64,000 nt of DNA from Microbacterium sp. LWO13-1.2. GTDB taxonomy: Bacteria; Actinomycetota; Actinomycetes; Actinomycetales; Microbacteriaceae. Below are positions 35,940-52,917 of this stretch, one piece after another; position 1 is the first letter of the stretch; each line of letters opens with the position of its first letter. Under the pieces are notes generated by a model that searched no databases, had not been told where the DNA came from, and was given only the letters and a program-made list of their open reading frames with translations. The DNA lies in contig NZ_CP151634.1 in NCBI RefSeq assembly GCF_038397725.1, positions 1,736,001 to 1,800,000 of the forward strand, in the 5' to 3' direction. The position numbers and the translations under genes are program-made.

Positions 35940-36386
35940 TCAGCGGACAACCCCCGCTCCGGCGTACGAGGCCGGTGCTGCTGTCGGGCCCGTAGCGTCT
36001 GCTGCGGGCCTTTCAGCTTTTGGGGCGCGATCCACGGTGACGCTGGCGAATTTCAGCGAGGCGCCGACGTTGTCGGCGACGACGTCGCGGGTTTCGCGGG
36101 TCTGGCCAGTCTCCTTGTCGGTGTAGGTGCCGAACCGGAGGTCGCCGGCGACGATCACGCTGTCGCCCTTGTGGAGCGAGTCTGCGATGTGCCGCGACTG
36201 CTGGTTGAACGCGACGACGCGGTGGAACACCGTGCCGGCGTCTTCCCAGCGGTTGGTCGTCTCGTTGAGGCGGCGGTCGTTGACGGCGACGGTGAATCGG
36301 GCGTACTCGTTACCCGACTCTCCTGTGCCGTGCTCGGGGTCACCGGTGAGGTTGCCCTCGATGGTGACGGGGATCCTCGTAGTCAT
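35940..36386 (-). CDS. ssb: Single-stranded DNA-binding protein
   Basis: A 148-residue OB-fold protein with the SSB pattern VTIEGNLTGDPE, FTVAVNDR and FHRVVAFNQQSRHIADSLHKGDSVIVAGDLR. It lacks the usual acidic DDDIPF-type C-terminal tail; the end is PAASYAG-type and short. ATG at 36386 has GGAAGAG upstream. It is last in the transfer operon, so it probably protects the transferred strand in the recipient or donor. Confidence 0.88.
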   Translation of the reverse strand: MTTRIPVTIEGNLTGDPEHGTGESGNEYARFTVAVNDRRLNETTNRWEDAGTVFHRVVAFNQQSRHIADSLHKGDSVIVAGDLRFGTYTDKETGQTRETRDVVADNVGASLKFASVTVDRAPKAERPAADATGPTAAPASYAGAGVVR

Positions 36387-36901
36387 CTCTCTTCCTTTCT
36401 GTTGTGCGACGCCTGGACAGGCGTCGCGATTGCGTGGGCCTGGCTGGTCCACGCAGTCCATTCCTGTTCGTCGATCACCCACGAGCGCGGCGTTGCGGCA
36501 TCATGCCCGCGTGCGCAGCCGCCGGAGTATGCACGGTTCATGCGGGGGATTGCGAGGCTGAGACGTTCGTGCCATCCGATCGGCCCGAACCCGGCATCGG
36601 ACGGATCAAACGCAGCGGTGTGCGCTATATGCAGTGCGGAGAGTTCCTCGACGAGTTGCCCGTGCTTGAACCAGCACGCTGGGACGACCGATTCGGAGAC
36701 CCGATAGCGAAGCGAGAACCACTCGACCCATGCCCGCAGCTCGTCCCATGCTTCGCGCGCATCGGCGTCGGTGAGGGTGCGCCAGTTCACGACGTGCGCG
36801 CCGAGCGGCACGGAGCTGGCGTGGCGGATGTCGGGTTCGAAGTCGCTCAGCTCGGCAGCGAGGAGGTCGTCGAGGTCGGGCGGTTCTTCGTAGCGGGTCA
36901 T
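36383..36901 (-). CDS. Hypothetical transfer-operon protein
   Basis: A 172-residue soluble protein, overlapping SSB and the HNH gene at both ends (four bases each). It contains W..L followed by LRAWVEWFSLRYRVSESVVPACWFKHGQLVEELSAL, a block that recurs in actinobacterial conjugative elements. No known catalytic motif. The start ATG at 36901 is chosen because the frame upstream is low-complexity arginine-rich shadow. Role unknown. Confidence 0.7.
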   Translation of the reverse strand: MTRYEEPPDLDDLLAAELSDFEPDIRHASSVPLGAHVVNWRTLTDADAREAWDELRAWVEWFSLRYRVSESVVPACWFKHGQLVEELSALHIAHTAAFDPSDAGFGPIGWHERLSLAIPRMNRAYSGGCARGHDAATPRSWVIDEQEWTAWTSQAHAIATPVQASHNRKEER

Positions 36902-37293
36902 GACGAGGCTCCTTCGGCGGGTTGCAGCTTGCGGCGGAGTCGTTCGAGCGCGAGGTCGGATGCTGCGCGGCGGGTGCGATTCCGGGAGAGGACGGCATCG
37001 CGGTCCAGGAGACGGTGGAGCAGATCGTGGCAGTACGGATGCATCGGCACGAGGTCTTCGTGCGTTTCGAGCGCCTGCCATCGCCCCTGATCGAGGACCA
37101 CGCCGACGTAGTCGAGGTGGTGCAGCTCGAGCTGCGCCTTGCTCGCAGCACGCCCGCAGCCCGCGCACGCCAGCACCCGACCGAACGACGCCTCTTCGGT
37201 GAACCAGCGGTCGCGCCTCGCGAACCAGACCGGTGAGTGCAGGAACTCAGACCGGTAGATGTTCAGCAGCCCGGGACGGCGACGATTGCTCAT
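36898..37293 (-). CDS. HNH-like zinc-binding protein
   Basis: A 131-residue protein with CAGCGRAASKAQLELHHLDY and later MHPYCHDLLHR, the Cys-x-x-Cys plus His-His plus Cys-His layout of small HNH proteins. Catalytic His is likely in LELHHLDY. It overlaps the coupling protein stop (ATGA). Possible roles are nicking, regulation, or a structural zinc finger in the transfer apparatus. Experimental role unknown. Confidence 0.65.
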   Translation of the reverse strand: MSNRRRPGLLNIYRSEFLHSPVWFARRDRWFTEEASFGRVLACAGCGRAASKAQLELHHLDYVGVVLDQGRWQALETHEDLVPMHPYCHDLLHRLLDRDAVLSRNRTRRAASDLALERLRRKLQPAEGASS

Positions 37294-39140
37294 TCGTCGT
37301 TCACCGCCTCGGCCGGAGCCGCCTCCGTCGAGGCAACGTCACGGGAGGATGGTTGTGCGGCGGGCTGAGTCGCGCGGGACGCGGCGTCGAACACGTCGCG
37401 CTGTTCGACCTCGGTCTGGCGTTTCCCGGATTGAATGCTCGCCGCGTCGCGACGTTCGTCCCAGCCGGCGAGGTCAAGGAGCACGCTGCGCCGGTTGCGG
37501 TACGCGAGCAGCCCCGTCGTTGGTGGGAGTCGGCGGATCTCGTCGACCGACATCAGCGGGCGGCGCTCGTGCTGCTCGCTCGCGGAGTGCCCGGCATCCC
37601 TGGTTGACCACGAACGTTGTGTGCGCTGCGTGTCGCGCGTGCCCAGCAGTGACTCGATGTCGCGGAGGTGGCCGACGTGGCTGGCGCCGCCCAAGAGCAC
37701 TTTCGCGGTCGCCGCGGCCCAGATGGTGTCAGCCTCCGCCCGCGACCAGGAGGTCTCGGCTTGGGAGAGAGCCTGCAGGACGATGAAGGTGCAGATGCCA
37801 CGACCCCCGCCGTCGGCCATGATCCGGGGCAGGTTGCCCCACCGGAACATGTTCGCGATCTCGTCGAGGATCAGCCCGAGCGGGTGCGCAAGCCGGGACC
37901 CCGGGGAGGCGAGCGCGGTGGTGCGGGCGACCTCGACGATGTCGTCGAGCAGCGCCCCGAGCCATCCGCCCATCGCTGAGGCGCCTGACGAGGACCCGAT
38001 CAGGTAGAGGGTGTTCGCGGCATCCAGGAACTCCCGCGGGTCGAGCGTGGGATCACCCGGTCGGGGCATCAGGGCGTCGCGGATCTGCGGGACGGCGAGC
38101 GGTGCGACGGCGCCCTGTACTCCGAACCAGATCGAGGAGACGAGCTTTTCGTCGCCGTTGATGGTCGCGTCGAGGCTGTCGCCCCAACCTGGGGCGCCGT
38201 CGCGCTTGAGGATGTCGACGGCGTCGCGGGTGAGTGCAGGGCTGGATCCCCAGTCGTAGAGTTCGGCGATCGTCTTCCGGCCCACGGCTGCGGCGTGCAG
38301 GAGTCTGCCGAGTATGACACCGGATGCCTGCGCCCACTCCCCGTTGGTTGTCGACGCGCCGAGCGCGGTGCCGGTGATGATCGCGGTGCCGCGTTGCATC
38401 GCCACCAGCGGATCCTCGCAGCCTGCGATGGGGGAGACGCGGAGCGGATGCCGGATGCCGGAGAGCCCTTGCGGGTCGAACACGTGCACGTCGCCGCGAG
38501 CCTGCCGGGTCCGCATCGTCGCGGTCAGGTTGTCGTTGGTGGTCGAGGTGGTGATCAACGGACCGGACCAGTCGACGATCGCGGAGACCAAGACGCGATA
38601 CCCCTTGCCCGACCGCGGCGGCCCTTCGAGCGCCACGGAATCCTCGATCGAGACGTAGACATCCTGCTGGCGGGAGCGCCCAACGCGCCAGCCGACGTCG
38701 GTAGCGGTGGGCTTGGCGAGATCCGGCCGGAGTTGGCGTGCGCGGCGGAGGACGGCGCGGGCGGACAGGTGCTCGCGGATCTCGGAACTCGTCGCGAACC
38801 CCGGCCGGGTCCGCAAGTCGGTGATGAACGCGCGGTCCGACTCCCGGTACCGACCTACCGCGACCAGCACCCACACGGTCGCGCTGGCAATCAGCAGGAC
38901 AGCGGCGAGGTCGGCAATGCGGATCCCTGTGATGGGTAGGGCGCATCCGGCGGGCGCGGTGTAGCCAGCCGGGTCGCCGGTGATCGCAAGCCCGAGCCCT
39001 GCGAACAGGTTGCCAGCGGTAGGTCGTGCACCGCAGATAAGGCGGGTGACGGCCTCCGCGATGAACCCGAACACGAGCGCGAGGATGACCGCGGCGCCGA
39101 TGAGCACCGTGACTCCTTTCCCGAGCAGTCCCTGATTCAT
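37290..39140 (-). CDS. Type IV coupling protein (TraG/VirD4 type)
   Basis: A 616-residue ATPase with two N-terminal membrane helices (about 8-30 and 70-92), Walker A GPPRSGKGY (about 173-181), Walker B LILDEIANMF and the downstream arginine-rich region. It docks the relaxase complex to the secretion channel and drives export. It is the link between the relaxase at 21.7 kb and this operon, although the two are separated by 12 kb of cargo. Confidence 0.88.
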   Translation of the reverse strand: MNQGLLGKGVTVLIGAAVILALVFGFIAEAVTRLICGARPTAGNLFAGLGLAITGDPAGYTAPAGCALPITGIRIADLAAVLLIASATVWVLVAVGRYRESDRAFITDLRTRPGFATSSEIREHLSARAVLRRARQLRPDLAKPTATDVGWRVGRSRQQDVYVSIEDSVALEGPPRSGKGYRVLVSAIVDWSGPLITTSTTNDNLTATMRTRQARGDVHVFDPQGLSGIRHPLRVSPIAGCEDPLVAMQRGTAIITGTALGASTTNGEWAQASGVILGRLLHAAAVGRKTIAELYDWGSSPALTRDAVDILKRDGAPGWGDSLDATINGDEKLVSSIWFGVQGAVAPLAVPQIRDALMPRPGDPTLDPREFLDAANTLYLIGSSSGASAMGGWLGALLDDIVEVARTTALASPGSRLAHPLGLILDEIANMFRWGNLPRIMADGGGRGICTFIVLQALSQAETSWSRAEADTIWAAATAKVLLGGASHVGHLRDIESLLGTRDTQRTQRSWSTRDAGHSASEQHERRPLMSVDEIRRLPPTTGLLAYRNRRSVLLDLAGWDERRDAASIQSGKRQTEVEQRDVFDAASRATQPAAQPSSRDVASTEAAPAEAVNDE

Positions 39141-39152
39141 GACGCCGGCTCC

Positions 39153-40433
39153 TCAGAGCGCCCCGGCGACAGATGCGGCGGCGCTCAGCCAGGCGTCGCG
39201 GGTACGGCGGTGTAACGCATCGAACCGCAGCGGTCCGGCTTTCAGCGCGCGGTCGAAGGGGATGATCTCGACGGCGCGGACGAGCGGACGGAACCCCTCG
39301 GCGATGCGCCGTGCCGTCCGTTCCGCCGGCTCGGATTGGGTGACAATGACGACCGCCCGGTCGGCGAGGTCGGCGGAGCGTTCGTCGCGGCCGCGGAGCG
39401 CGTCCAGGAGCAGTGCGGCGGATTCGGCGGATTCCGGGGTGGCAAGGGTGGGGATCACGAGCTGGGAGGAGCTGTCGATCATCCGCAGCCACCGATCAGC
39501 GGATTCGTCGTTACCGGAGTCAAATACCACGAGGCGGAAATAGCGGGCGGCGACGCGCATCAGCAGGTTGAACTCGGAGGCGGCGATGCGCTGATCCGTG
39601 GCGAGAAGCTCCGGGTTCGAACGCAGCACGTCGTACCGGTCGGTCGCCTGGTGATGCACGAACCGCGTGATGTCCGACACCCCGGCGCTCAGCTCGAGTA
39701 GCCCGGGGGCAGCGGGCACCAGGTCGCGGAGGGTGGTGTCGTAGAGGCCTTGTTCGGTGCGCCAACCGAGGGTGCCGCGGGTGTCGTTGTTGTCCCAGGC
39801 GAGCACGTTCCCGCCGCCTTCACGGGCGTACACGGCGGCGAGCATCGCGCAGGTCATCGTCTTGCCTACGCCGCCTTTGCCGTTTGCGACGGCGATCGTG
39901 CGGCATCCGGCCCAGTGCATCGATACGGCCGCGACCCAGTCGGCCCGCCGACGGTCGGCATTCGACGGCCGGATGTTGATCCCGATGCCGGCGAGGGCAC
40001 CACGCCACCCGGTGGGTCGGGAGGCGGCCTCTGCAACGGGGGTGAGGAAGGTCGGACGGGGAGACTCCGCAGCCGACATGGCGTCAACGGCATCGGGCTG
40101 CGGGGTCGGTACCGTAAGCTCCTCTCCGCTCGTCGACGCGTCCGCGATGTCGGGGACGGGACCGGTTGGGGAAGCTGTCGCGTCCGGCGTGATCGCCGTG
40201 AATGTGCCATCGGTGCCGACGAGGAGGTGGTGGGAGCCGCGGTCGCCGGCGGTGATGAGTTCGACCGGGGTGCCGGTGCGGCGGGCCTCTTCGGTGGCGC
40301 GGCGGACGACCGCGTGGCGGATGTCCTCCTCACCGGTCGGTGTGACGGGTTCGGTGCTGCCCTCGAGGGTGATGAAGGTCGCCTGCGGCCCGGTGACGGT
40401 CGCGTAGGTGCGGGGATGGGTGACGATGCTCAT
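39153..40433 (-). CDS. MinD/ParA-like ATPase
   Basis: A 426-residue protein with a variable acidic 170-residue N-terminal region, then a deviant Walker A GKGGVGKTM (about 185-193), and VVFDSGNDES in the position of Walker B. The P-loop is the ParA/MinD signature. In conjugative operons such proteins may position the transfer complex or help partition. No ParB is visible here. ATG at 40433 is used; the gene starts 11 bases after the VirB4-like stop. Confidence 0.82.
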   Translation of the reverse strand: MSIVTHPRTYATVTGPQATFITLEGSTEPVTPTGEEDIRHAVVRRATEEARRTGTPVELITAGDRGSHHLLVGTDGTFTAITPDATASPTGPVPDIADASTSGEELTVPTPQPDAVDAMSAAESPRPTFLTPVAEAASRPTGWRGALAGIGINIRPSNADRRRADWVAAVSMHWAGCRTIAVANGKGGVGKTMTCAMLAAVYAREGGGNVLAWDNNDTRGTLGWRTEQGLYDTTLRDLVPAAPGLLELSAGVSDITRFVHHQATDRYDVLRSNPELLATDQRIAASEFNLLMRVAARYFRLVVFDSGNDESADRWLRMIDSSSQLVIPTLATPESAESAALLLDALRGRDERSADLADRAVVIVTQSEPAERTARRIAEGFRPLVRAVEIIPFDRALKAGPLRFDALHRRTRDAWLSAAASVAGAL

Positions 40434-40444
40434 GGTCAGTGCTC

Positions 40445-42046
40445 CTAGGTGAGATCGAGTGTGAGATCGCGGGATTCGGGGATGACCCAGCCGCCGAGGC
40501 TGGTGTCAGGGCCACTGGGCCAGTAGGCGTCGAGGGCCTCGGCGTCCAGGATTCGGAGGGCGTCGTCGTGGTCGGCGGCGGAGACGGCGTCGTCGGTGGC
40601 GAACAGTTCGTATTCCCAGTCGGTGCTGGTGGCGAAACAGTCGACGAGGTAGGAGAACTGGCCCACGTAGGCGAGGAACTCGCCCTTCCGCAGTTGCCTA
40701 GCCATCTCCACGTGCGGAGCTGGAAGGTTCAACCGCTGGCGGAGGGCAGTCTGCTCTTGGTGGTTGACGCGGAAGATGAACTTGTTCTCGATGTCGCCGA
40801 CGATCGAGTAGGCGAGGGAGCGTTCCATCGAGTCGGCGTCGCCGACAGCATCCAGGTCGCCCATCTTGTGCAGGATCACGATGTTGCTGATCCCGTAATG
40901 GCGGGACAGCTTGAGCCACTGCTGGAACATCTGCAACGACGCCAGCGAGGTCATGTCGCGCCATCCTTCCTCGCGGACCACGTAGCGGGTGCGGTGCGCG
41001 GCCCGGTCGCTGATCACCGCCTGGATCCACGCCGTCGAGCACACCTGCGTGAGCTGGGCGGCGAGGTCACCGCGGGCGAACAGCTCACTGGTGTCGGTGA
41101 CGACGATCGGCGCGTCCTGGTCGAACTCGACCGTGGACTCGTCTTCGAAGAGCCCGGACAGGTCGCCGTCAACGAATCGGCGCAGCACGAACAGAGGCTG
41201 AATGGCGCCGTCGGACGCACGGAACGCGGCATCGGACTCTTCAGCGATGGTGCCGAGCTCCTGGTAGACACCGCGGAGCGTCGGCCGGTCATCGGTGTGC
41301 GCGATGCACCGCTCCAGTGCGTCGAGGATCGCGGCGTGCTCGACCGCGGTAAGGCGGTTGCCGAGCGTCAACTCGATCAGCGAGATCAGGGTGCCGATGC
41401 GACGTTGCTTGACCATCTGCTCGTGCTGCTCATCCGTCGTGTCGGTGCGACGCGGGCCGCGGTCGAGCGGATTGAGGCGGGTGCCGGTGCCGCCGCCGAG
41501 GCGGATCACCTGCCCGCTCGGGATCGCCTCCGCGACCGCGACCCACTCGCCCTTGGGGTCCGAGGGAACGACAACCTGGTGCCCGAACGCGATCGACCGC
41601 GTGACGAGGGTCTTCACCGTCGCGGACTTCCCGCCCCGGTATGCCCCGAGTACGAGGATGTTCGTGGAGAACGTGCCGCGCTCGGTGTCGTCGACGTACG
41701 CCTCCCACGGGGAGAAGTGCCACAGCGCGTCGGCGTTCAGGTCGACGCCCAGGATGGGGCCGCGGTGTCCGAGCCCGGAGTCGGCGACGAACGGGTAGAT
41801 CCCGGCGATGTGCTGCGAGGTCGCCTGATGCGCCGGGACCACCGCCTTCGCCAGATTCCAGTACCCGCCCTGAACGAAGCCGGGGCCGAACGGCCCGCGC
41901 ACCGGTGCCTCGGGAAGAGAACGGTCATGACGTGTCGTGCGAGCGGGCGTCGCCTCTCGCTGCTCTTGCGCGACCTGACGTCGCAGCTCGCGCTTCTGCC
42001 GTCGGGTGAGGCCGGTCGGGGTGAAGGTGGCGGCGTGGCGGGTCAT
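40445..42046 (-). CDS. VirB4-like conjugative ATPase
   Basis: A 533-residue protein with Walker A LGAYRGGKSATVK and IVVTDTSELF and VVREEGWRDM further on as the Walker B-like region. Its size is close to the C-terminal half of VirB4; the N-terminal domain is missing, and is supplied by the SCO6880-like protein upstream. ATG at 42046 overlaps the stop of that gene by one base. It powers assembly of the transfer channel. The ATPase domain is FtsK/VirB4 like. Confidence 0.85.
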   Translation of the reverse strand: MTRHAATFTPTGLTRRQKRELRRQVAQEQREATPARTTRHDRSLPEAPVRGPFGPGFVQGGYWNLAKAVVPAHQATSQHIAGIYPFVADSGLGHRGPILGVDLNADALWHFSPWEAYVDDTERGTFSTNILVLGAYRGGKSATVKTLVTRSIAFGHQVVVPSDPKGEWVAVAEAIPSGQVIRLGGGTGTRLNPLDRGPRRTDTTDEQHEQMVKQRRIGTLISLIELTLGNRLTAVEHAAILDALERCIAHTDDRPTLRGVYQELGTIAEESDAAFRASDGAIQPLFVLRRFVDGDLSGLFEDESTVEFDQDAPIVVTDTSELFARGDLAAQLTQVCSTAWIQAVISDRAAHRTRYVVREEGWRDMTSLASLQMFQQWLKLSRHYGISNIVILHKMGDLDAVGDADSMERSLAYSIVGDIENKFIFRVNHQEQTALRQRLNLPAPHVEMARQLRKGEFLAYVGQFSYLVDCFATSTDWEYELFATDDAVSAADHDDALRILDAEALDAYWPSGPDTSLGGWVIPESRDLTLDLT

Positions 42047-43539
42047 CACTTCATCCCCAATCCGACCGGGATCGCGTTCACCATCAGCGCCTCGGCCTGC
42101 TGGCAGTACAGGATCTGCGCCTCCATTCCGGCGCGGGACAGGGCGTTGCGCATCCCCGCTACGGCCTGGTCGAGGCGCTCCTCGTCGGATGCGGTGATGG
42201 TGAGGTAAGCGCCGTACTGGAACTCGCCGTGCCCGTTCGCAATTTCCTGTTCCTGCTGCTCCAGGGCACGCCAATCCGCAGCATCCGCCGCCGATCCGTC
42301 CGCCCCGCGCTTCGCGCGGAGCGACTCGTTGCCACGCCACACCTTCTTCTCGTCACGGATCCGCTTCAACGCTTTGGACACCGGAACCGGGGTCAGCACG
42401 ATGGAGAGGATGTGCGTGATCGCCTCACCCGTGTTCGGATGCCGGGCGAACACGACGGGGGAAAGGAACCCGACGGGAGAATCGGAGCGCGGCCACTCGT
42501 GCACCCACATGGTCGTGTGCACGCCGGAGTCGGTAACGACGATCCCGTTGCGTCCCTTCGGCTCATCGAGGAACATCGGGCCGATCGCGACCGGATCGAC
42601 CCCGGCGAGCTGATCGGGACGGTTCTGCACGATCGGCGCGAACTCCGGATCGAACGCCAGCCGGCCGAGGGCTGCGACATCACGAACTGTCAACCAGCGG
42701 CGGACGGTGATCTTCGCGGCGGTCAGCGCGTCGGCGAGGTTGCCGGATTCGATCTGCGCGAGAGCGAGGATCGCGTCCTTCCCGCCGCCGAGCGCCTTCA
42801 ACTGCGACCCGAGCGCGACCAGGTCGAGGGTGAGGATGACGTAGTTGCGATGCGCGACCTCGAACCGCTCCGACTGATCCATCACCTCCTGGTAATTGCG
42901 GGCGACCGGCGAATCTGCGGCGATGTTCCTGACTCGGCGGACGGTGTCGTAGTGGTCGCGGGCGGCGCGGATCGTGGTCGGCAGGGTGCGCTCTTGCAGG
43001 GTCACCCGCTTCATTCCGGGGCGCTGGGTGAATGGTCCGAGGACCCGGTCGAACTGCTCCGCGAGGTCGAACCGTTCGGGGAGGTCGTGCATCAGGAAGC
43101 CCTGCACTTCGAGTTCCGCGACGACCGACACGGACCGGTCGTGCGGGTTGTAGACGGCAGCGAGACCGTTCACATCCCACAGCTGCAGCGACGCACGGAT
43201 GCCGGGAAGGTTCAGCGTGCCAGCAAGTTCGGGGCGCTCGGGGCGGAACGTGTGCGTCGTCGCCCCGGTACGGCTACGGAGCTTCTTCATCATCCACAAT
43301 GCCGCCATCCGAGGGGTGGAGACCCCACGGAGGCTCGTCAGCGCGGTCACCCCGAACCCCAGATACAGCGGTGCGCCGTACAGCAGCCCGAGCGGCCCGA
43401 ATCGGTTCACGAAGAGCAGCAGAACGAGCGCCGCGATGGCGAGGAAAGTCAGCTGCCAGGGATCCATCCCCATCACGACGCCCTGCCTCGACCGACGCGG
43501 CAACCGCACCGGACGTGCGTAGTCGCTGTTGATGGTCAT
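42046..43539 (-). CDS. SCO6880-family membrane protein of actinobacterial conjugation
   Basis: A 497-residue protein with two N-terminal membrane helices (about 26-62) and a long cytoplasmic part. It matches the family named for SCO6880, which pairs with a VirB4-like ATPase in actinobacterial transfer systems and looks like a PrgI plus VirB4-N fusion. It overlaps both neighbours by one and four bases. It probably anchors the ATPase to the channel. Confidence 0.82.
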   Translation of the reverse strand: MTINSDYARPVRLPRRSRQGVVMGMDPWQLTFLAIAALVLLLFVNRFGPLGLLYGAPLYLGFGVTALTSLRGVSTPRMAALWMMKKLRSRTGATTHTFRPERPELAGTLNLPGIRASLQLWDVNGLAAVYNPHDRSVSVVAELEVQGFLMHDLPERFDLAEQFDRVLGPFTQRPGMKRVTLQERTLPTTIRAARDHYDTVRRVRNIAADSPVARNYQEVMDQSERFEVAHRNYVILTLDLVALGSQLKALGGGKDAILALAQIESGNLADALTAAKITVRRWLTVRDVAALGRLAFDPEFAPIVQNRPDQLAGVDPVAIGPMFLDEPKGRNGIVVTDSGVHTTMWVHEWPRSDSPVGFLSPVVFARHPNTGEAITHILSIVLTPVPVSKALKRIRDEKKVWRGNESLRAKRGADGSAADAADWRALEQQEQEIANGHGEFQYGAYLTITASDEERLDQAVAGMRNALSRAGMEAQILYCQQAEALMVNAIPVGLGMK

Positions 43540-45011
43540 GATGGGCTCCCCTCAGCCTGCGGTTTCTGAGCTTGCGGTGATGCTTTCGGCGGTGCCTGCG
43601 GCGAAGCTTGCGGCGAGGGACGCGGTGTTGATGCGGTGGGACCGCCGGAGTGGGATCCGCCGGACGTCGTGGCCGTGCGATTCCGAGTCGGTGTGGATGC
43701 ACGGCGGAGCGCACCCGACCTGGCGCCGGTCTTCGACATCGGGCCGGTGCTCTTGGGACCGCCACCCGGCGAGTGGATACCGGAGGGGAGACCGCCGAGC
43801 CGAGTCGGGATACGCGCGGCCGTGCGCCCTGCGTTCCCGGCCATGCGCCCGCCGTGAGATCCGAGGCGAGAGCCGACGCCGTCGGCGGCAACCGCGCCGA
43901 CGAAGCTGAACAGCCCGAAGATCGCGAAAGGTGCGAATGCGACGAGGACGAGTCCGACCAGCAGCGGCCAGGACTGCGGATTCCAGATCGTCTTCACGCT
44001 CGCGAGCCCGTTGATGATAAGCGTGACGAACCCGATCGTGAGGGGACCGGTCAGCAACAGGACCATCACAGCCGAGGAGTAGCGGACGACCCATTGCGGA
44101 CCGACACCGCGCACCGGGAACAGCATCCACGCCACCGGTCCGACCATGATGAGCGCGGCGAGCACGATGTTGCGGAACGTGAACACGAGCATCAGCAGCA
44201 GCATCCCGAGCATGAGGAGACCGTGGATCAGGAAGGCGAAGAAGTAATTCGCCTGCCCGCCGGCCCACATCACCGACTGCAGCGTCGAGAACAGCGCAAG
44301 CGGACCGTCGCGGTTCATGATGTACCAGGTCATGTCGTCGATCGCGTTCAACAGGTGGCCCGTCAGCCACAGCGTGATCGGCACCGCGGGGACCGCGATG
44401 AACGACCGCACCAGAGCGCCCACGAGCTCCTCGCGATCACCGGAGACGACGGCAGCGGCGACGGCCCAGACCATCGCGCCGAAGGTGATGATCAGGATCG
44501 CCCACTGCCAGAACGACCACTCGCCGACCGCCGCGGCCCACAGCAAAGTGCTGGTGTCGAAGCGCATGGCATCCGCGACGAGGAACATGATCGCCGTCGC
44601 CGCGATCGCCATGCCACGACCCGCGTTCTCAAACGTGAGGCAGACGGCATCCCCGAGGCTGCAGCCGTACTTCACCAGCAGGGGAGTGCCGCCGTCGGCC
44701 TGAATGGCCTTGACGTGTCCTTCGTAGGTCGTGCAGACCATGGCGCGCTCACCGCCGAACGAGACCCCGACGAAACACTGCTGGGCCGTGACCTGCTGTG
44801 TGTCATTCGGGGTGCAGTTGACCTGCCCGCTCGAGCTCTGGCAATCGACATCGAACGCGGGAGCGGACCAGGGTTCGCCACCGACGGATGCCGACATGGG
44901 CGGGGTATTGGCGGCATCCGCAGGGGTGCTGGCCTGGGCCGCGCTGCCCGAGGCGAGCACCAGCGCGATCCCGACGGTGACGCCGAACCGGAGCACGCGC
45001 AGCATGTTCAT
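43536..45011 (-). CDS. VirB6/TrbL-like polytopic membrane protein
   Basis: A 491-residue protein: signal peptide (1-28), a periplasm-side Cys-rich segment with about six Cys (DCQSSS to CLTF), then five to seven membrane helices from about 125 to 400, and a long Pro/Ser/Thr-rich tail. This is the layout of VirB6/TrbL-like channel proteins. It overlaps the pilin-like gene by one base. It likely forms the inner-membrane pore. Confidence 0.82.
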   Translation of the reverse strand: MNMLRVLRFGVTVGIALVLASGSAAQASTPADAANTPPMSASVGGEPWSAPAFDVDCQSSSGQVNCTPNDTQQVTAQQCFVGVSFGGERAMVCTTYEGHVKAIQADGGTPLLVKYGCSLGDAVCLTFENAGRGMAIAATAIMFLVADAMRFDTSTLLWAAAVGEWSFWQWAILIITFGAMVWAVAAAVVSGDREELVGALVRSFIAVPAVPITLWLTGHLLNAIDDMTWYIMNRDGPLALFSTLQSVMWAGGQANYFFAFLIHGLLMLGMLLLMLVFTFRNIVLAALIMVGPVAWMLFPVRGVGPQWVVRYSSAVMVLLLTGPLTIGFVTLIINGLASVKTIWNPQSWPLLVGLVLVAFAPFAIFGLFSFVGAVAADGVGSRLGSHGGRMAGNAGRTAARIPTRLGGLPSGIHSPGGGPKSTGPMSKTGARSGALRRASTPTRNRTATTSGGSHSGGPTASTPRPSPQASPQAPPKASPQAQKPQAEGSPS

Positions 45012-45307
45012 CAGAACCCGAAGTCGAAATTCACGAACCAGGCGAACAGGCCGGATGCCGCACCGAGGACGGCGGCGGCGATGAAGATCCAGAGGATGTT
45101 CTCGCCCGCCCAGGTGCGCACGCGATCGGAGGCAAGGCCGCGGAAGGCGAGGGCAGCGCCGGCGATGATCAGCATGATCAGGACGACGAGCATCGCGCCC
45201 GCGAGGATGTACGACGCGATGACTTGGAACCCTTGGAAGAACGGGGCAGAGAAGTCCGGTTGGATATCGGGGACGTCGACCTCGCCAGGGATGGTGTTCG
45301 TGAACAT
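45011..45307 (-). CDS. VirB2-like small membrane protein
   Basis: A 98-residue protein with a polar N terminus and two membrane helices (about 30-54 and 70-94) joined by the RGLASDRVRTW loop. Size and topology match VirB2/TrbC-like pilin or channel proteins that lie next to VirB6 genes. No signal peptide. It may be the pore or pilus subunit of this transfer system. Confidence 0.7.
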   Translation of the reverse strand: MFTNTIPGEVDVPDIQPDFSAPFFQGFQVIASYILAGAMLVVLIMLIIAGAALAFRGLASDRVRTWAGENILWIFIAAAVLGAASGLFAWFVNFDFGF

Positions 45308-45344
45308 GGGGATCTGCTCCTTGCGGTGGGGGCCTGCGCGGGCC

Positions 45345-45953
45345 CTATTTCAGGGGAAGGCCGAGAGCGGCCATGAACGGCTCCGGATCTACCGGAGTTC
45401 CGGACTTCTGAACTTCGAAATGCAGATGGCATCCGAACGACGCGCCGGTGTCGCCTTCCGCACCCAGAGGTGTGCCTGCCGTGATCTGCTGCCCTTCGAC
45501 AACACGGATCGATTCCCATTGCATGTGGCCGTACAGCGTGACCAGCGAGTCGCCGTGATCGATGCGGACGGTGTTTCCCCAGCCGTAGTACGACCCCGCC
45601 GTGATCACTTCCCCGGGCCCAGCGGCGAAGATCGTCGAGCCGCAGCCCTGAGCCATGTCATAGCCCTTGTGGTTCGTGGAGCAGTAGCTGCATCCGTCCA
45701 CCGGGTCGTATCCGAACCCGCGGCCCTTGGTGTATTCGCCAGCGAGCGGGTACCCCCAGTCGCCGCTCGCTGCCGGAGGATTGGCGCCGGGTTCAACGAT
45801 GCCCGCGGCGCTCCCTGCGACAGCGAACGGGATCGCGATCAGCGGAGTCAGCGCGAATGCCACAGCGAGCAGGATGACCAGGATCGCTCCGCCAAGGATC
45901 CGCCGGCCAGTCCTCGTATTGAGGGCTGCGGCGGCGACGGCGGGGACACCCAT
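45345..45953 (-). CDS. M23-family peptidoglycan peptidase
   Basis: A 202-residue protein with one N-terminal membrane helix (about 18-45) and a C-terminal LytM/M23 metallopeptidase. Zinc-ligand motifs are NHKGYDMA (His and Asp) and FGCHLHFE (His-x-His). It cuts peptidoglycan cross-links and makes room for the conjugation channel. It starts at ATG 45953, one base after the VirB8-like gene stop. Two Cys in GCSYCSTNHKG lie next to the active site. Confidence 0.88.
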   Translation of the reverse strand: MGVPAVAAAALNTRTGRRILGGAILVILLAVAFALTPLIAIPFAVAGSAAGIVEPGANPPAASGDWGYPLAGEYTKGRGFGYDPVDGCSYCSTNHKGYDMAQGCGSTIFAAGPGEVITAGSYYGWGNTVRIDHGDSLVTLYGHMQWESIRVVEGQQITAGTPLGAEGDTGASFGCHLHFEVQKSGTPVDPEPFMAALGLPLK

Positions 45954-45954
45954 G

Positions 45955-46686
45955 TCAGGGCTCCAACGGCTCCGTGAAGTAACGCACCACCTTGCAGTCC
46001 CCAGACTGCTGCGCACTATCGGGCGTCGGTACGGATCCGGCGCCGCACAGCACCTGGACACTCACCCGCACCTGCTCGTCATAAGACGTCTCGCTGCCGT
46101 CGCCATCTGACCGCGTGAAGGACAGCGTCACGTCCGCGGTCCCGATCGACATGTCGCCAGACGCGTCATCACTGACCGGCACGAAGGCGATATCGCCAGT
46201 CGTGGCGGCAACGACCCGGCCGTCTTCGTTCGCGAGCGAGTCCCAGTCCTGCTGGGGGAGCACGACGCCTTGACGCATCAATCCTTGCGAATCCGTCATC
46301 GCGGCCTGCTGATCGGCTTCGGAGTTGAAGCGGGTGTCGGGCGTGAACCAGGTGTCGAGGTAGTCGAGCCACGCTTCTCGCTCGCCCTTCGTCGTGTCGA
46401 AGGAGGATGCGGCTTCGAGCGCGGCGCGAATATACGTTGCGGCGTCCGTCGTGATCGGTTCGGGTCGCCAGCCGCGGTCGGCGACGGAGGGGTCGACGAC
46501 CTCGTCATCACCCGGGGTCGTCTGTGGAGTGGGCTGCGTTGTCGGCTCCCCGGTCGGATCTGTGGGCGTCGGCGTCCGCTGTGTCAGCAAGGAGCCGATG
46601 ATGATCGCCACGATGCCAGCGACCAAGACGAGGCCGCCGGTGATGGCCCACGTCAGTCCGCGCCGTCCGGAGTTTGCGCTCGTCAC
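45955..46686 (-). CDS. VirB8/TcpC-like transfer protein
   Basis: A 243-residue protein with one membrane helix (about 10-32), a Thr/Pro-rich linker, and a C-terminal domain with mixed helix and sheet (residues about 80-240). The size and layout fit VirB8/TcpC-like bitopic transfer proteins in Gram-positive elements. GTG at 46686 is the start because it overlaps the previous TAG by one base. No sequence signature makes this certain. Confidence 0.6.
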   Translation of the reverse strand: MTSANSGRRGLTWAITGGLVLVAGIVAIIIGSLLTQRTPTPTDPTGEPTTQPTPQTTPGDDEVVDPSVADRGWRPEPITTDAATYIRAALEAASSFDTTKGEREAWLDYLDTWFTPDTRFNSEADQQAAMTDSQGLMRQGVVLPQQDWDSLANEDGRVVAATTGDIAFVPVSDDASGDMSIGTADVTLSFTRSDGDGSETSYDEQVRVSVQVLCGAGSVPTPDSAQQSGDCKVVRYFTEPLEP

Positions 46687-47759: not shown

Positions 47760-48575
47760 CTAGCTCGCTTCGCTCGTCTTCCGGCGCGCACGGAGGTGTT
47801 TGACGATCAACTGTGTCGTCACTGCGACGATCAGCACGGAGAAGGCGATGTTCGACGCGAGGGGAGTGATGTTCGTTGCGGTCAACAGGCCGAGCGGAGA
47901 AGCGATGCACGCGGTGATGCCCACGGTCGCGGCAACGCGCATATCGAAGTTCTTCCGACGCACGTTTCCGATCGTGCCGGATAGGGAGCCGGGGATCATC
48001 ATCAGCAGCGAGGTGCCCTTGGCGTTGAGGTCGCCCGCTCCGAACAGCAGCATCAATGCCGGCACGACGATGATCCCGCCTCCCACGCCGAGAATCCCGG
48101 AGAGGATTCCGGTGAGCACACCGAGAGCAGCGAGTCCGGCGACGGCCCAGCCGTCGATGCTGATGGTGTCGCCGCGGTCGGGGATGACGATCCACAGGCT
48201 GATGACGACGCCCGCCATGAACACGATGAAGATCCAGAACAGCACCGACCTGGGAAGCCGCGACAGCAGGTAACTACCGATCTGCGCTCCTCCGATGATC
48301 CCCGCTGCCAGGATCGCGCCAGCGACCCAGTCGACGTGACCAGCGATGCCATAGCTGGTGGCGCCGACAATGGCAGTGGGAAGGATTGCAGCGACCGAGC
48401 TTCCTGCGGCCCGCCGTTGATCGATGCCCAGGAGCACCAACGCGGGCACGACGATGATGCCGCCGCCGACGCCGAAGAGGCCAGAGAGATACCCGGCCGT
48501 CAAGCCCAGGACCATCAGGCCCCAGAGGGGGATCGGGCCCTTGGCTGTTGCTTTCGTCGCGTTACCAGATGCCAT
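47760..48575 (-). CDS. TauE/SafE-family (TSUP) permease
   Basis: A 271-residue protein with about eight membrane helices and two internal repeats that both contain [15 protein letters not shown] or [15 protein letters not shown], the TSUP signature. This family exports sulfite or related anions. GGAGGG lies nine bases before ATG at 48575. Its start overlaps the end of the PEPCK-fusion gene by 14 bases, so it may be co-transcribed with it, though a functional link is not evident. Confidence 0.85.
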
Positions 48576-51054
48576 CAATTGTTCCCTCCGTGGTGCGAGG
48601 CCGCGAGCGTGGTGACGTGATCGCGGAACACGATGTCCACGAGTGCGGATCTGATGGCAAGATCACGCCGGAGGCACTGGGGTAGTCACCCGGCTCTTGC
48701 CTCGCGCGGTTGGGGTGAGCGTGCGGTCGTACGGATCCCGATTCTGAGTTCTCAACGATCTCCGTTGCCTCCGCGATGCAAAGCGTTGAGGCACCCGCGC
48801 GAACGCGGTTGACGACCCGGGCGCGAATCACGACCGATGCATCCATGAAATAAGGCTCGCCGGTGGATAGTAGAGACCATTTCCCGGTATCGCCGAAACG
48901 ATCTGCGCCGCTCAGGGTGCCGAGCCTTGCCAGCCAGGAGGAGTCTGTGTCGGGCATGTGCACGACGACGGATTCTGTCTCGAGGATGACGGGTGCGTTC
49001 GAGGAGAGATCGGGTACCGAGAACACAAGCAACGGCGGTTCGGCGCTGAGCGAGGACAGGGAGCTGACAGTGAGAGCGATGTGCTGCCCGTTCTCGGTCG
49101 CGGTGACTAAGGCAAAGCCTGCGGGGTGATTGCGGAAGGCGCTCTTGAACTGGTCAGGGGAAACGGTCTCAACGGTTTGGAACACGCGGCCCTCATGCTC
49201 CTCCGGAGTTCTCGGGTTCCGTCCGGCGGCGATGGTGAGCCTGCTACGCAGCGATGCGAGCTCGGCGCGGAGAGCTGCCGGCAGCTTGTCGCCGAAGGTG
49301 TCGAAGAACTCCTCGGTCAGGTCGGCCTCGGCGAGCCAGGCGGCGGAGTCGATCGAGAACAGCTCCTCGAGATCGGCGTCGGCGATGTCGAGTCCGTCCA
49401 GATTGAGGTCCTCGACGCGCGGCAGGCGGCCGATGGGGCTGTCCACGGCGGGCACTTCACCGGCGACGCGGCGGATGATCCAGTCGATGACGCGCGAGTT
49501 GTCGCCGAATCCGGGCCACAGGAACCGGCCGTCGGAGCCGCGGCGGAACCAGTTGACCTGGAAGATCCGCGGCGCCCGGTCGAAGCGCAGGCTGCGGCCG
49601 ACCTTGAGCCAGTGCGCGAAGTAGTCGCCCATGTTGTAGCCGCAGAACGGCAGCATCGCGAAGGGATCGCGGCGCAGCTCGCCGAGCGTGCCCTCGGCCG
49701 CGGCCGTGCGCTCGGAGGAGATGGTGGATCCGAGGAAGACACCATGCGTCCAGTCGGTCGCCTCGACCACCAGCGGGACGTTGGTCGCACGACGCCCCCC
49801 GAACAGGATCACATCGAGCGGAACCGCCTGCTCCCAGTCCTCGGCGATCTGCGGGCACTGGGCGGCCGAGACCGTGAACCGGGAGTTCGGATGCGCCGCC
49901 GGACGACCGGAATCGGGCGTCCAGGGGTTGCCCTCCCAGTCGATGAGCTCGGCCGGTGCCTCGTCGGTGAGGCCCTCCCACCAGACGTCGCCGTCGGGGC
50001 GGAGTGCGACGTTGGTGAAGATGGTGTTTCCCCACAGCGTCTCGACGGCGGTGACGTTCGTGGACTCGCCGGTGCCCGGCGCGACGCCGAAGAAACCGGC
50101 CTCCGGGTTGATCGCCCACATCCGTCCGTCGTCGCCGGGGCGGATCCAGGCGATGTCGTCGCCGAGCGTCTCGACCTTCCAGCCCGGGATCGTCGGGCGC
50201 AGCATCGCGAGGTTCGTCTTACCACAGGCAGAGGGGAACGCCGCCGCGACGTGGTACGCCTTGCCCTGCGGGTCGATCACCCGGATGAGCAGCATGTGCT
50301 CGGCGAGCCAGCCCTCATCACGCGCGATCACCGACGCGATGCGGAGGGCGAAGCACTTCTTCGCAAGGATCGCGTTGCCGCCGTATCCGGAGCCGAAGGA
50401 GTAGACCTCGAGCGAGTCCGGGAAGTGCACGATGTACTTCTCGTCGTTGCACGGCCACTCCACGTCCGCCTCACCTGCAGCGAGCGGGTCGCCGACCGTG
50501 TGCACCGTCTTCACCCAGGGCGCGCCCTCGGCGATCCGGCGGGTGACGGCGTCGCCGACCCTGGTCATGATGCCGATGGATGCCACAGCGTAGGCGCTGT
50601 CGGTGATCTGGACGCCGATGTGCGAGAGCGGGCCGCCGACCGGGCCCATCGAGAACGGGACGACGTACATCGTGCGACCGCGCATCGAGCCCTCGAAGAG
50701 GCCGGTCATCTTCTGGCGCATCTCGGCCGGATCCGCCCAGTTGTTCGTGGGTCCGGCATCCTCTTCACGCTCGGAGGCGATGAAGGTGCGCCCCTCGGTG
50801 CGGGCGACGTCGCCGGGGTGCGAGCGGGCGAGGTAGGAACCGGGGCGCCACTCGGGGTTGAGCTTGATGATCTTGCCCTCGTCGACGAGCCCGCGCAGCA
50901 GCCAGTCGTTCTCGGCCCGTGAGCCGTCGACCCAGTGCACGTTCGCGGGCTGAGTGAGGGTGCGGATCTCCTCGACCCAGGCGGCCAGCTCGGCCATCGC
51001 GGGCGTGTCATAGCGCGGCGCAGAGGGCGAGACGTTCAAACCTGAACTCTTCAC
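48562..51054 (-). CDS. GTP-type phosphoenolpyruvate carboxykinase fused to flavin-reductase-like domain
   Basis: An 830-residue protein. Residues 1 to about 606 are a full GTP-dependent PEPCK (kinase loop [30 protein letters not shown], and [14 protein letters not shown]). PEPCK usually ends at about 605-620. Here the frame continues through [15 protein letters not shown] into a flavin-reductase-like domain (about 623-770) with [13 protein letters not shown] and [25 protein letters not shown]. Start GTG at 51054 has GGAAGGA upstream. The PEPCK makes phosphoenolpyruvate from oxaloacetate; the added domain may bind flavin. The tail after about 770 is poorly conserved and may follow a frame change. 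Confidence 0.85.
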
Positions 51055-51379: not shown

Positions 51380-52159
51380 ATGATGGCGCAACTGGGTAAC
51401 CTGCTGAATTCCCTCTCAAACGGTGACGTGACGATCATCGATCTGACGAACAAGCTGACCGAGAACACGCCCAGCCTGACGCTTCCCAAGCCGTTCCCGA
51501 GCCCGCTTCCGTTCTCGCTGGACGAGATCGCGGCCTACGACGAGCGTGGGCCGATGTGGGCGGCGAACGACATTCACATCGGCGAGCACACTGGCACTCA
51601 CCTGGACGTGCCCATCCACTGGCTGACCGGACGCGAGGGCACAGACGTCTCGGAGACTCCCCTGACACGACTGGTCGGACCAGCGGTCGTCATCGACTTC
51701 ACGGCCGAGGCTGCGGCCGACCCGGACTTCCTGGTGACCGTCGACCACCTGAAGGCGTGGGTAGCGGAACATGGAGAGTTCCCCGACAACGCCTGGCTTC
51801 TGTTCAGGACGGGCTGGTCAGTCCACAGCCAGAATCCGGAGAGGTTCGTCAATGCCGACAGCACGGGCTCGCATACCCCAGGATTCACCGCGGAGTGCGC
51901 ACGCTGGCTGGCGGAGGAGACTCGCATCTCAGGCGTAGGGGTGGAGACCATGGGCCTGGATGCGGGACTCGGTCACGGTCTGGACCCCGAGATGCCGATG
52001 CACTACTACCTCCTCGGCAACGACAAGTACGGCGTCACCTCACTGCAGAACCTGGATCTGCTTCCGACGACGGGCGCAGTGATCGTGGTCGCCCCGCTCC
52101 CGATCGTGGGGGGCACGGGCAGTCCGGCTCGCGTCATCGCATTGGTGGAGCAGGCATGA
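51380..52159 (+). CDS. Cyclase-family hydrolase (kynurenine-formamidase-like)
   Basis: A 259-residue protein with the metal-binding signature HIGEHTGTHLDVPIHW (HxGTHxDxPxH), typical of the cyclase/KynB family. These enzymes hydrolyse amides or lactone-like bonds using divalent metal. A later HYYLLGNDKYG block is also typical. ATG at 51380 has GAAGG upstream; 51383 is equal in likelihood. Its stop overlaps the next ATG (ATGA). It may act on a metabolite imported by the nearby Liv systems. Confidence 0.85.
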   Translation: MMAQLGNLLNSLSNGDVTIIDLTNKLTENTPSLTLPKPFPSPLPFSLDEIAAYDERGPMWAANDIHIGEHTGTHLDVPIHWLTGREGTDVSETPLTRLVGPAVVIDFTAEAAADPDFLVTVDHLKAWVAEHGEFPDNAWLLFRTGWSVHSQNPERFVNADSTGSHTPGFTAECARWLAEETRISGVGVETMGLDAGLGHGLDPEMPMHYYLLGNDKYGVTSLQNLDLLPTTGAVIVVAPLPIVGGTGSPARVIALVEQA

Positions 52160-52917
52160 CTATCAGCATCGAACTGACGAAGTTCGGCCACGCGTGTGTG
52201 CGACTCGAGAAGAACGGTCGGCGGATCGTCATCGATCCCGGTGAGTACAGCGACCCGGCGCCGGCGCTCGAAGGCGCCGAGCACATCCTGATCACCCATC
52301 AGCATCCTGACCATCTGGAAGAGGGTGCGGTGCTGCGGCATCTCGCAGCGAACCCCGACGCCACGGTCCGCGCTCCCGAGGTCCCAGCGGCCCGTCTTCT
52401 CGCTCAGGCGGCGGGGGCCGGTGTGAAGGACAGCCAGATCATCGCCACTGGAGCGGGAGAGCAGTTCGACAGCGCAGGCTTCTCGCTCCGCACCGTCGGA
52501 GGTCAGCACGCGGTGATCCATGCCTTCATCCCGGTGGTGGCGAACACCGGGTACATCGTCGACGGCTTGGTGTATCACCCCGGCGACAGCTTCATCGTTC
52601 CGGCTGGGCCCGCCCCTGACACGCTGCTCGTGCCTTTGAGTGCACCCTGGAACAAGATGGCCGAGATGGTCGACTTCATCACTGCTGTGCGCCCGAGGCA
52701 GGCCGTCCCAGTGCACGACGCTCTGCTCAACGAGACCGTCGGGCGGCCGCTGTACATCAAGAGAGCGCGGATGTTCGCGGATCGTCACGGTGTGGAATTC
52801 ACCGATCTCGGGGTGGGGGAGACGATTGTGATCGAGGGGCCGGCGCCGACTGACGTGGATGCCGGCGCGGACGCCGTCTTCTCGGACAAGTTGGATCTCC
52901 GGCACTTCAACGGCTGA
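52156..52917 (+). CDS. Metallo-beta-lactamase-fold hydrolase (UlaG-like)
   Basis: A 253-residue protein with the metal motif THQHPDHL (HxHxDH), IDPGEYS at the strand before it, GGQHAVIH and YHPGDS further on. The group includes UlaG-type lactonases and uncharacterised Zn-dependent hydrolases. ATG at 52156 overlaps the cyclase stop by four bases, so the two are co-translated. Joint action on one ring-containing metabolite is a reasonable guess. Confidence 0.85.
   Translation: MTISIELTKFGHACVRLEKNGRRIVIDPGEYSDPAPALEGAEHILITHQHPDHLEEGAVLRHLAANPDATVRAPEVPAARLLAQAAGAGVKDSQIIATGAGEQFDSAGFSLRTVGGQHAVIHAFIPVVANTGYIVDGLVYHPGDSFIVPAGPAPDTLLVPLSAPWNKMAEMVDFITAVRPRQAVPVHDALLNETVGRPLYIKRARMFADRHGVEFTDLGVGETIVIEGPAPTDVDAGADAVFSDKLDLRHFNG

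Follow-up and report, generated by a model that had tools for sequence, protein, structure and literature searches.

Results

The window, that is, the whole 64-kb stretch of Microbacterium sp. LWO13-1.2 DNA analyzed here, carries an open reading frame in which a GTP-dependent phosphoenolpyruvate carboxykinase (PEPCK) runs directly into a flavin reductase (Table 1). No stop codon or frameshift was found anywhere within its 830 codons. A preliminary description had proposed a complete GTP-type PEPCK and a flavin reductase within one frame of this length, and the open reading frame, the Pfam matches and the alignment with Mycobacterium tuberculosis Pck (Mtb Pck, 4R43) bear this out. Of the ten proteins of the nearby conjugative-transfer-type block, six gave no Pfam match, including large ones of 485, 475 and 491 amino acids. 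Neither a tRNA nor an Rfam match was detected in the window. In comparisons of the window genome (G000; handles of this kind denote the genomes searched) with G075, G117 and G133 around the island edges, the left side was hardly conserved, and some long matches returned at 1.867–1.873 Mb.

Table 1 Features of the fused frame and its surroundings, in window positions
Feature	Position	Strand	Remark
Conjugative-transfer-type block near the pair	35940..46686	-	SSB, TraG/T4SS coupling protein, ParA-like ATPase, M23 peptidase
TauE/SafE family membrane protein	47760..48575	-	5' end overlaps the 3' end of the fused frame
Fused open reading frame	48562..51054	-	830 codons; GTG start at 51054
Degenerate reductase C-terminus and run-on tail	48562..48732	-	PLVYHNRTWH-type motif lost
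Flavin reductase part from internal GTG	48562..49185	-	Residues 624–830
Flavin_Reduct Pfam domain	48742..49134	-	Residues 641–771
Linker	49186..49236	-	Residues 607–623 (17 residues); former leader of the reductase gene
PEPCK (GTP) part	49237..51054	-	Residues 1–606
Ribosome-binding-like stretch GGGAAGGAA	51060–51068		Directly upstream of the GTG of the fused frame
Cyclase-family hydrolase	51380..52159	+	Divergent neighbor
Metal-dependent-hydrolase-like protein	52156..52917	+	NCBIfam match below cut-off

The PEPCK half matched PEPCK_N (residues 26–245, 306 bits) and PEPCK_GTP (residues 249–605, 540 bits), as well as the NCBIfam equivalog for GTP-dependent PEPCK, NF003253, at 933 bits against a cut-off of 504; both Pfam domains and the equivalog exceed their cut-offs, which places the protein among the GTP-dependent PEPCKs. 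Aligned against their families, the two halves of the frame thus gave PEPCK_N, PEPCK_GTP and Flavin_Reduct all in frame, in keeping with the preliminary description. Homology to Mtb Pck extends to residue 606, and the P-loop SACGKTN and ETLGDDIAW segments are identical in the two proteins. The nucleotide- and metal-site motifs, whose roles are in part described in PMC4370629, are present in the alignment with 4R43, where they were matched as motifs and not by the residue numbering of the paper. Like Mtb Pck and the proteins of NF003253, the window PEPCK covers the whole fold, but it differs from them in being a second copy with its own short N-terminus and without its own stop, so that it runs into the reductase. 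The opposite strand of the PEPCK gene contains a 598-codon open frame (window 49126–50922, +), a typical high-GC mirror frame.

An unfused PEPCK was located in the same genome, a single contig of 4,008,377 bases, at 3,783,846–3,785,645, 2 Mb from the fused gene. The two copies share 97% protein identity and 91.5% DNA identity over 1775 bases without a gap. The window PEPCK is therefore an extra copy and the cell retains its normal PEPCK. The N-terminus of the window PEPCK is unlike that of the housekeeping copy and 11 residues shorter. Against the gene of G075, dN was 0.0154 and dS 0.265, and this dN/dS of about 0.06 indicates that the window PEPCK is under constraint, although the low value may partly be inherited from time spent as a housekeeping gene in a donor. 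Separately, contig C3 of G117 (L049, 7637 bases) shows the gene order of the housekeeping PEPCK locus of G000; its PEPCK is 97–98% identical to that of the window, compared to 91–92% for the main copy of G117, and the contig probably stems from contamination or from a second strain in that assembly.

At the joint, residue 624 (GTG at 49185) aligns with the start methionine of unfused reductase relatives, the free-standing proteins beginning M-Y-Q-T, M-Q-Q-T or M-E-Q-T compared to V-F-Q-T in the window. With the reductase thus complete from its original start codon, the linker represents the former leader of that gene; the linker DNA contains GGAGGAG at 49198–49204 and GAGGG at 49190–49194. What is missing in the window, and likewise in G052 and G329 (see below), is the end of the PEPCK, namely its last one to three codons and the stop. 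The housekeeping PEPCK terminates LRYRLAKA-stop, and its last three residues and the stop are absent from the window copy. The linker had earlier been taken for the trimmed N-terminus of a reductase gene, left by a deletion between two adjacent genes. That the fusion arose from two neighboring genes is plausible, as the pair in G329 is adjacent, separate and in the same frame, but the reductase N-terminus was not trimmed: its start codon is retained, and it is the PEPCK end that is lost. A deletion cutting into the reductase N-terminus was rejected on the same grounds.

The reductase half matched Flavin_Reduct at 70.8 bits against a cut-off of 27, over profile positions 2–136 of 153. Matches to the NCBIfam models for RutF, HpaC and HsaB were weak (31.5 bits at best, compared to a cut-off of 254.75), and none of these named reductase equivalogs reached its cut-off, all falling far below. 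The protein shares the Flavin_Reduct domain with HpaC, HsaB and RutF, and the neighbors of its relative in G329 include HsaA-like oxygenases; it differs in its far lower scores and in lacking the C-terminal motif described below. By domain and neighborhood it resembles the FMN-reductase partner of two-component monooxygenases.

The C-terminal end of the window reductase is aberrant. Its last ~55 residues are collinear with normal reductase ends, the alignment involving RPLVYHNRTWHELG being gapless from RP onward, and the suspicion that the last 60 residues were frame-shifted was not borne out. A frameshift at the end of the frame was rejected, as the alignment is in frame as well as collinear. 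The reductase stop is also lost, and the frame goes on for about 34 codons beyond the normal end, reaching the beginning of the TauE/SafE family gene. A C-terminal motif of the P-LVYHNRxWH type is absent in the window and present in G052; its relaxed form is kept in 45 of 45 other reductase loci (44 by pattern and L004, with A for P, by eye), a count that includes several near-identical loci and sets aside 11 distant ones (L072–L081 and L083). A set of 48 near-invariant columns was defined by at least 95% conservation among 119 relatives from the database, a definition that favors those 119. The window reductase breaks 11 of these columns, of which 8 fall at reductase residues 155–169 and 3 outside the C-terminus; none of the other 119 reductases breaks more than 6, and 75 have every column intact. 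AlphaFold2 gave 76–97 pLDDT for ten-residue blocks of residues 631–770, a reductase domain predicted to fold with good confidence, and less than 50 pLDDT for the tail (residues 781–830), which is predicted to be unstructured. The model of the whole fusion reached an overall pLDDT of 42.5 on a shallow 33-row alignment and was uninformative for the PEPCK half, and it therefore supports no inter-domain conclusion. Judged by its sequence, the reductase half is probably weakened or dying after the loss of the motif.

The same observations raise the prospect that the whole window copy is a decaying relic on its way to a pseudogene, with a redundant PEPCK, a stop lost by drift and a broken reductase. 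The excess of broken columns, the run-on tail overlapping the next gene and its predicted lack of structure fit such decay, while the PEPCK is intact along its whole length with a low dN/dS against G075, just three broken reductase columns lie outside the C-terminus, and all 830 codons are free of stops and frameshifts. We regard this reading, which overlaps with the one preferred below, as possible without favoring it.

The same pair was found in two other genomes of the genus. When 149 genus genomes were searched with the whole fusion protein, G052 was retrieved; its PEPCK and reductase are fused in frame as a protein of 809 residues whose reductase end is intact. A joint of this kind, which the preliminary description had suggested looking for in sister genomes, thus exists in a relative. 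Among 366 genus genomes, reductases within an E value of 1e-40 occur at seven places in six genomes. A PEPCK lies directly upstream at three of these (G000, G052 and G329), and the other four (G106, G231, G304 and a second place in G329) have none upstream. In G329, the PEPCK has lost its own stop and is instead closed by another TGA some ten codons further on; after six more codons comes the reductase ATG, in frame with the PEPCK, leaving two separate genes. The reductase start codon is kept in all three genomes, and the in-frame fusion occurs only in G000 and G052 of the 366. The reductase proteins of G052, G329 and G106 are identical to records of Microbacterium sp. LWS13-1.2, LWH7-1.2 and LWH3-1.2, respectively.

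Wider searches returned no further case. Among 51 further loci (L063–L113, covering about 1.5 kb on each side, with 30 of 146 matching family genomes giving loci), a PEPCK was beside the reductase in the window's own copy only. When 398 family genomes were searched with the fusion at E 1e-250, no foreign PEPCK match among those listed continued stop-free through the reductase, the longest (G368) extending to residue 670 across two TAG stops. Fifty-five plasmid records gave matches, none covering 80% of the query, and the ten matches listed were all annotated as PEPCK. In a protein database search for long proteins carrying the reductase part, none of 3185 candidates scored. No fusion was present among the best 120 of 8000 scored PEPCK-like proteins, all 120 being 590–640 amino acids long, and the top-scoring PEPCK-like protein, P0122, is a PEPCK–PEPCK chimera. 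The window reductase has a database record of its own, 207 residues long from the internal GTG onward (P0002, on three contigs), as has that of G052 with 175 residues (P0005); the housekeeping PEPCK of the window genome is recorded as P0124, whereas no protein identical to the PEPCK half of the window was found among the same best 120 of 8000. A PEPCK–flavin reductase may be missing from the records because annotation pipelines divide such a frame and discard a PEPCK that lacks a stop; the records may also hold a differing sequence. Word searches of the literature found no paper on a PEPCK–flavin reductase fusion and no title on gene conversion among PEPCK paralogues.

The gene content around the pair is catabolic. 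The G329 cluster encodes HsaA-like flavin monooxygenases, an amidohydrolase, an amidase, RidA, a 2-hydroxy-3-oxopropionate-reductase-like dehydrogenase and an M24-like protein; each of these names comes from an NCBIfam match that did not reach its cut-off. Four HsaA-like oxygenases, a label taken from the NCBIfam name of the G329 query and likewise below cut-off, are located in G000 no farther than about 60 kb from the fused gene, compared to none in G075. By these gene names, the pair sits in islands with two-component monooxygenases. The same reductase subtype occurs without PEPCK at L047 (G329) and L048 (G106), adjoining an HsaA-like oxygenase that has a relative in G000 at 1807352; proteins that on reading resemble transposases lie a few kb from L047.

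The history of the PEPCK half was examined with a codon tree of 37 PEPCKs. The linked copy of G052 grouped with its own housekeeping gene, that of G329 with its own, and the window copy with the gene of G075 and then with its own. A single clade of the three island PEPCKs was rejected (p-AU 1.45e-7), as was a clade of G052 and G329 alone (8e-7), while grouping of the window PEPCK with its own housekeeping gene was not rejected (p-AU 0.07), the nearest gene being that of G075. Island and housekeeping copies are 99.9% identical in DNA over 1777 nt in G052 and 97.3% over 1767 nt in G329, and a concerted-evolution test likewise found these copies closer within each genome than to orthologues, the nearest for G000 again being G075. 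The blocks flanking the pair in G052 and G329 are in the same order and only 67–79% alike. In the two island copies, leaders and initial 13 codons are homologous (score 41, reached by 0 of 2000 plain shuffles), and the housekeeping N-termini of G052 and G329 differ from them, being some 26 and 19 residues longer. Because the match within each genome is high, the flanks are far less alike and the leaders are homologous, the sequences support well, for G052 and G329, a long-standing island PEPCK in which gene conversion from the resident gene later replaced the core.

For G000, gene conversion is weakly indicated. Unconverted flanks attest common ancestry for the G052 and G329 leaders and not for that of the window, whose score against these two was reached by 691 and 659 of 2000 shuffles, that is, no homology. 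In addition, about 60 kb separate the G000 pair from the counterpart of the G052/G329 site between RidA and amidase. The corresponding region, G000:C1:1842415-1851537 (L126), is syntenic with the G052 and G329 clusters at 68–78% DNA identity, and no PEPCK–reductase pair is present between its RidA and amidase. The pair in G000 either moved as a unit or formed again; given the non-homologous leader and the distant site, it is possibly an independent join.

Extended to every lineage, this idea becomes a reading without gene conversion, in which a copy of the local housekeeping PEPCK was inserted afresh ahead of the reductase each time. The tree alone would fit it equally well, as would the leader and location of the window pair, which are unlike those of G052 and G329. 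Three insertions near the same PEPCK end and in the same frame would be an unlikely coincidence, however, and in G052 and G329 the leaders and N-terminal codons are homologous to each other, unlike the housekeeping ones, at the same site between RidA and amidase. We therefore find independent recruitment doubtful.

Discussion

The explanation that we prefer, and consider reasonably probable, is the read-through join of a gene pair from a catabolic island, made up of an extra GTP-dependent PEPCK and the FMN-reductase of a two-component flavin monooxygenase. Because the PEPCK has lost its own stop at the joint, ribosomes would pass through the former leader into the reductase, and a co-transcribed pair would give a fusion of ~90 kDa by read-through. 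As the reductase start codon is kept, free reductase would perhaps also be made from the internal GTG beside the fusion. During growth on the island substrate, the PEPCK could drain oxaloacetate from island catabolism to PEP, the reductase could supply FMNH2 to the HsaA-like monooxygenases of the island, and the PEPCK half would tend to be overwritten by the housekeeping PEPCK of the host through gene conversion. On present comparisons, the locus seems better described as a gene pair that travels than as an established novel redox enzyme. A bolder version, in which a cassette moves in catabolic islands, its PEPCK half is rewritten by the host and one polypeptide ties PEP to the supply of FMNH2, seems to us unlikely.

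Nothing here points to the redox-linked gluconeogenic enzyme envisaged in the preliminary description: the reductase goes with the island monooxygenases, and its motif is broken. A bifunctional protein, a single polypeptide that couples flux through PEPCK with the reduction of flavin, could draw on the in-frame joint in two species, with linkers that by eye differ in length and sequence, and on the shared frame of all three pairs. Yet the two genes are separate in G329, the reductase retains its start codon, its C-terminal motif is broken in the window, and the fusion is confined to 2 of 366 genus genomes, with none among the matches listed for 398 family genomes. We also know of no biochemical link between PEPCK chemistry and FMN, which further counts against the bifunctional reading, and we judge it quite improbable. 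Redox control of PEPCK itself was reportedly described before, for M. tuberculosis, by Machova in 2014, a work cited in PMC4370629. An assembly or sequencing artefact at the joint is very improbable, for although the genome holds two similar PEPCK copies and its reductase and housekeeping PEPCK have identical database records while the PEPCK half has none among the best 120 matches, it is a single contig, the DNA identity of the copies is far from inviting assembler merging, the reductase protein is recorded from three contigs and G052 has the same kind of joint.

Returning to the island gene pair joined by read-through, its components have relatives among known systems. In Microbacterium sp. 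BR1, according to PMC5693940, a flavin reductase (SadC) and two monooxygenases lie in a cluster that its authors suggested to be mobile, a reductase–monooxygenase catabolic cluster in the same genus and, by analogy, a precedent for such clusters there. A reductase of BR1 (L066), which may or may not be SadC itself, matches the reductase family at 50%; in contrast to the window, no PEPCK is found within ~5 kb on each side of it. Concerted evolution of duplicated genes in prokaryotes, including tuf, tkt and others, is described in PMC6053082, and the present case shares the feature that paralogues within a genome are more alike than orthologues between species. It differs in that an island carries one of the copies, which in two of the three genomes forms half of a fusion; the main text of PMC6053082 does not use the word 'phosphoenolpyruvate'. 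A tandem pair turned into a fusion and the concerted evolution of an island-borne core gene are thus both of kinds known before.

If a single polypeptide is made, it would combine PEPCK with a domain in a pairing that we have not found described. Of greater interest than the fusion itself is that a gene of core metabolism travels as island cargo and is overwritten by the resident copy, a testable case of how duplicates of essential genes that arrive by transfer stay compatible with the host or are erased by it. As a separate observation, another genome of the genus carries a second PEPCK (G110:C1:1311869-1313656) that is only 60% identical.
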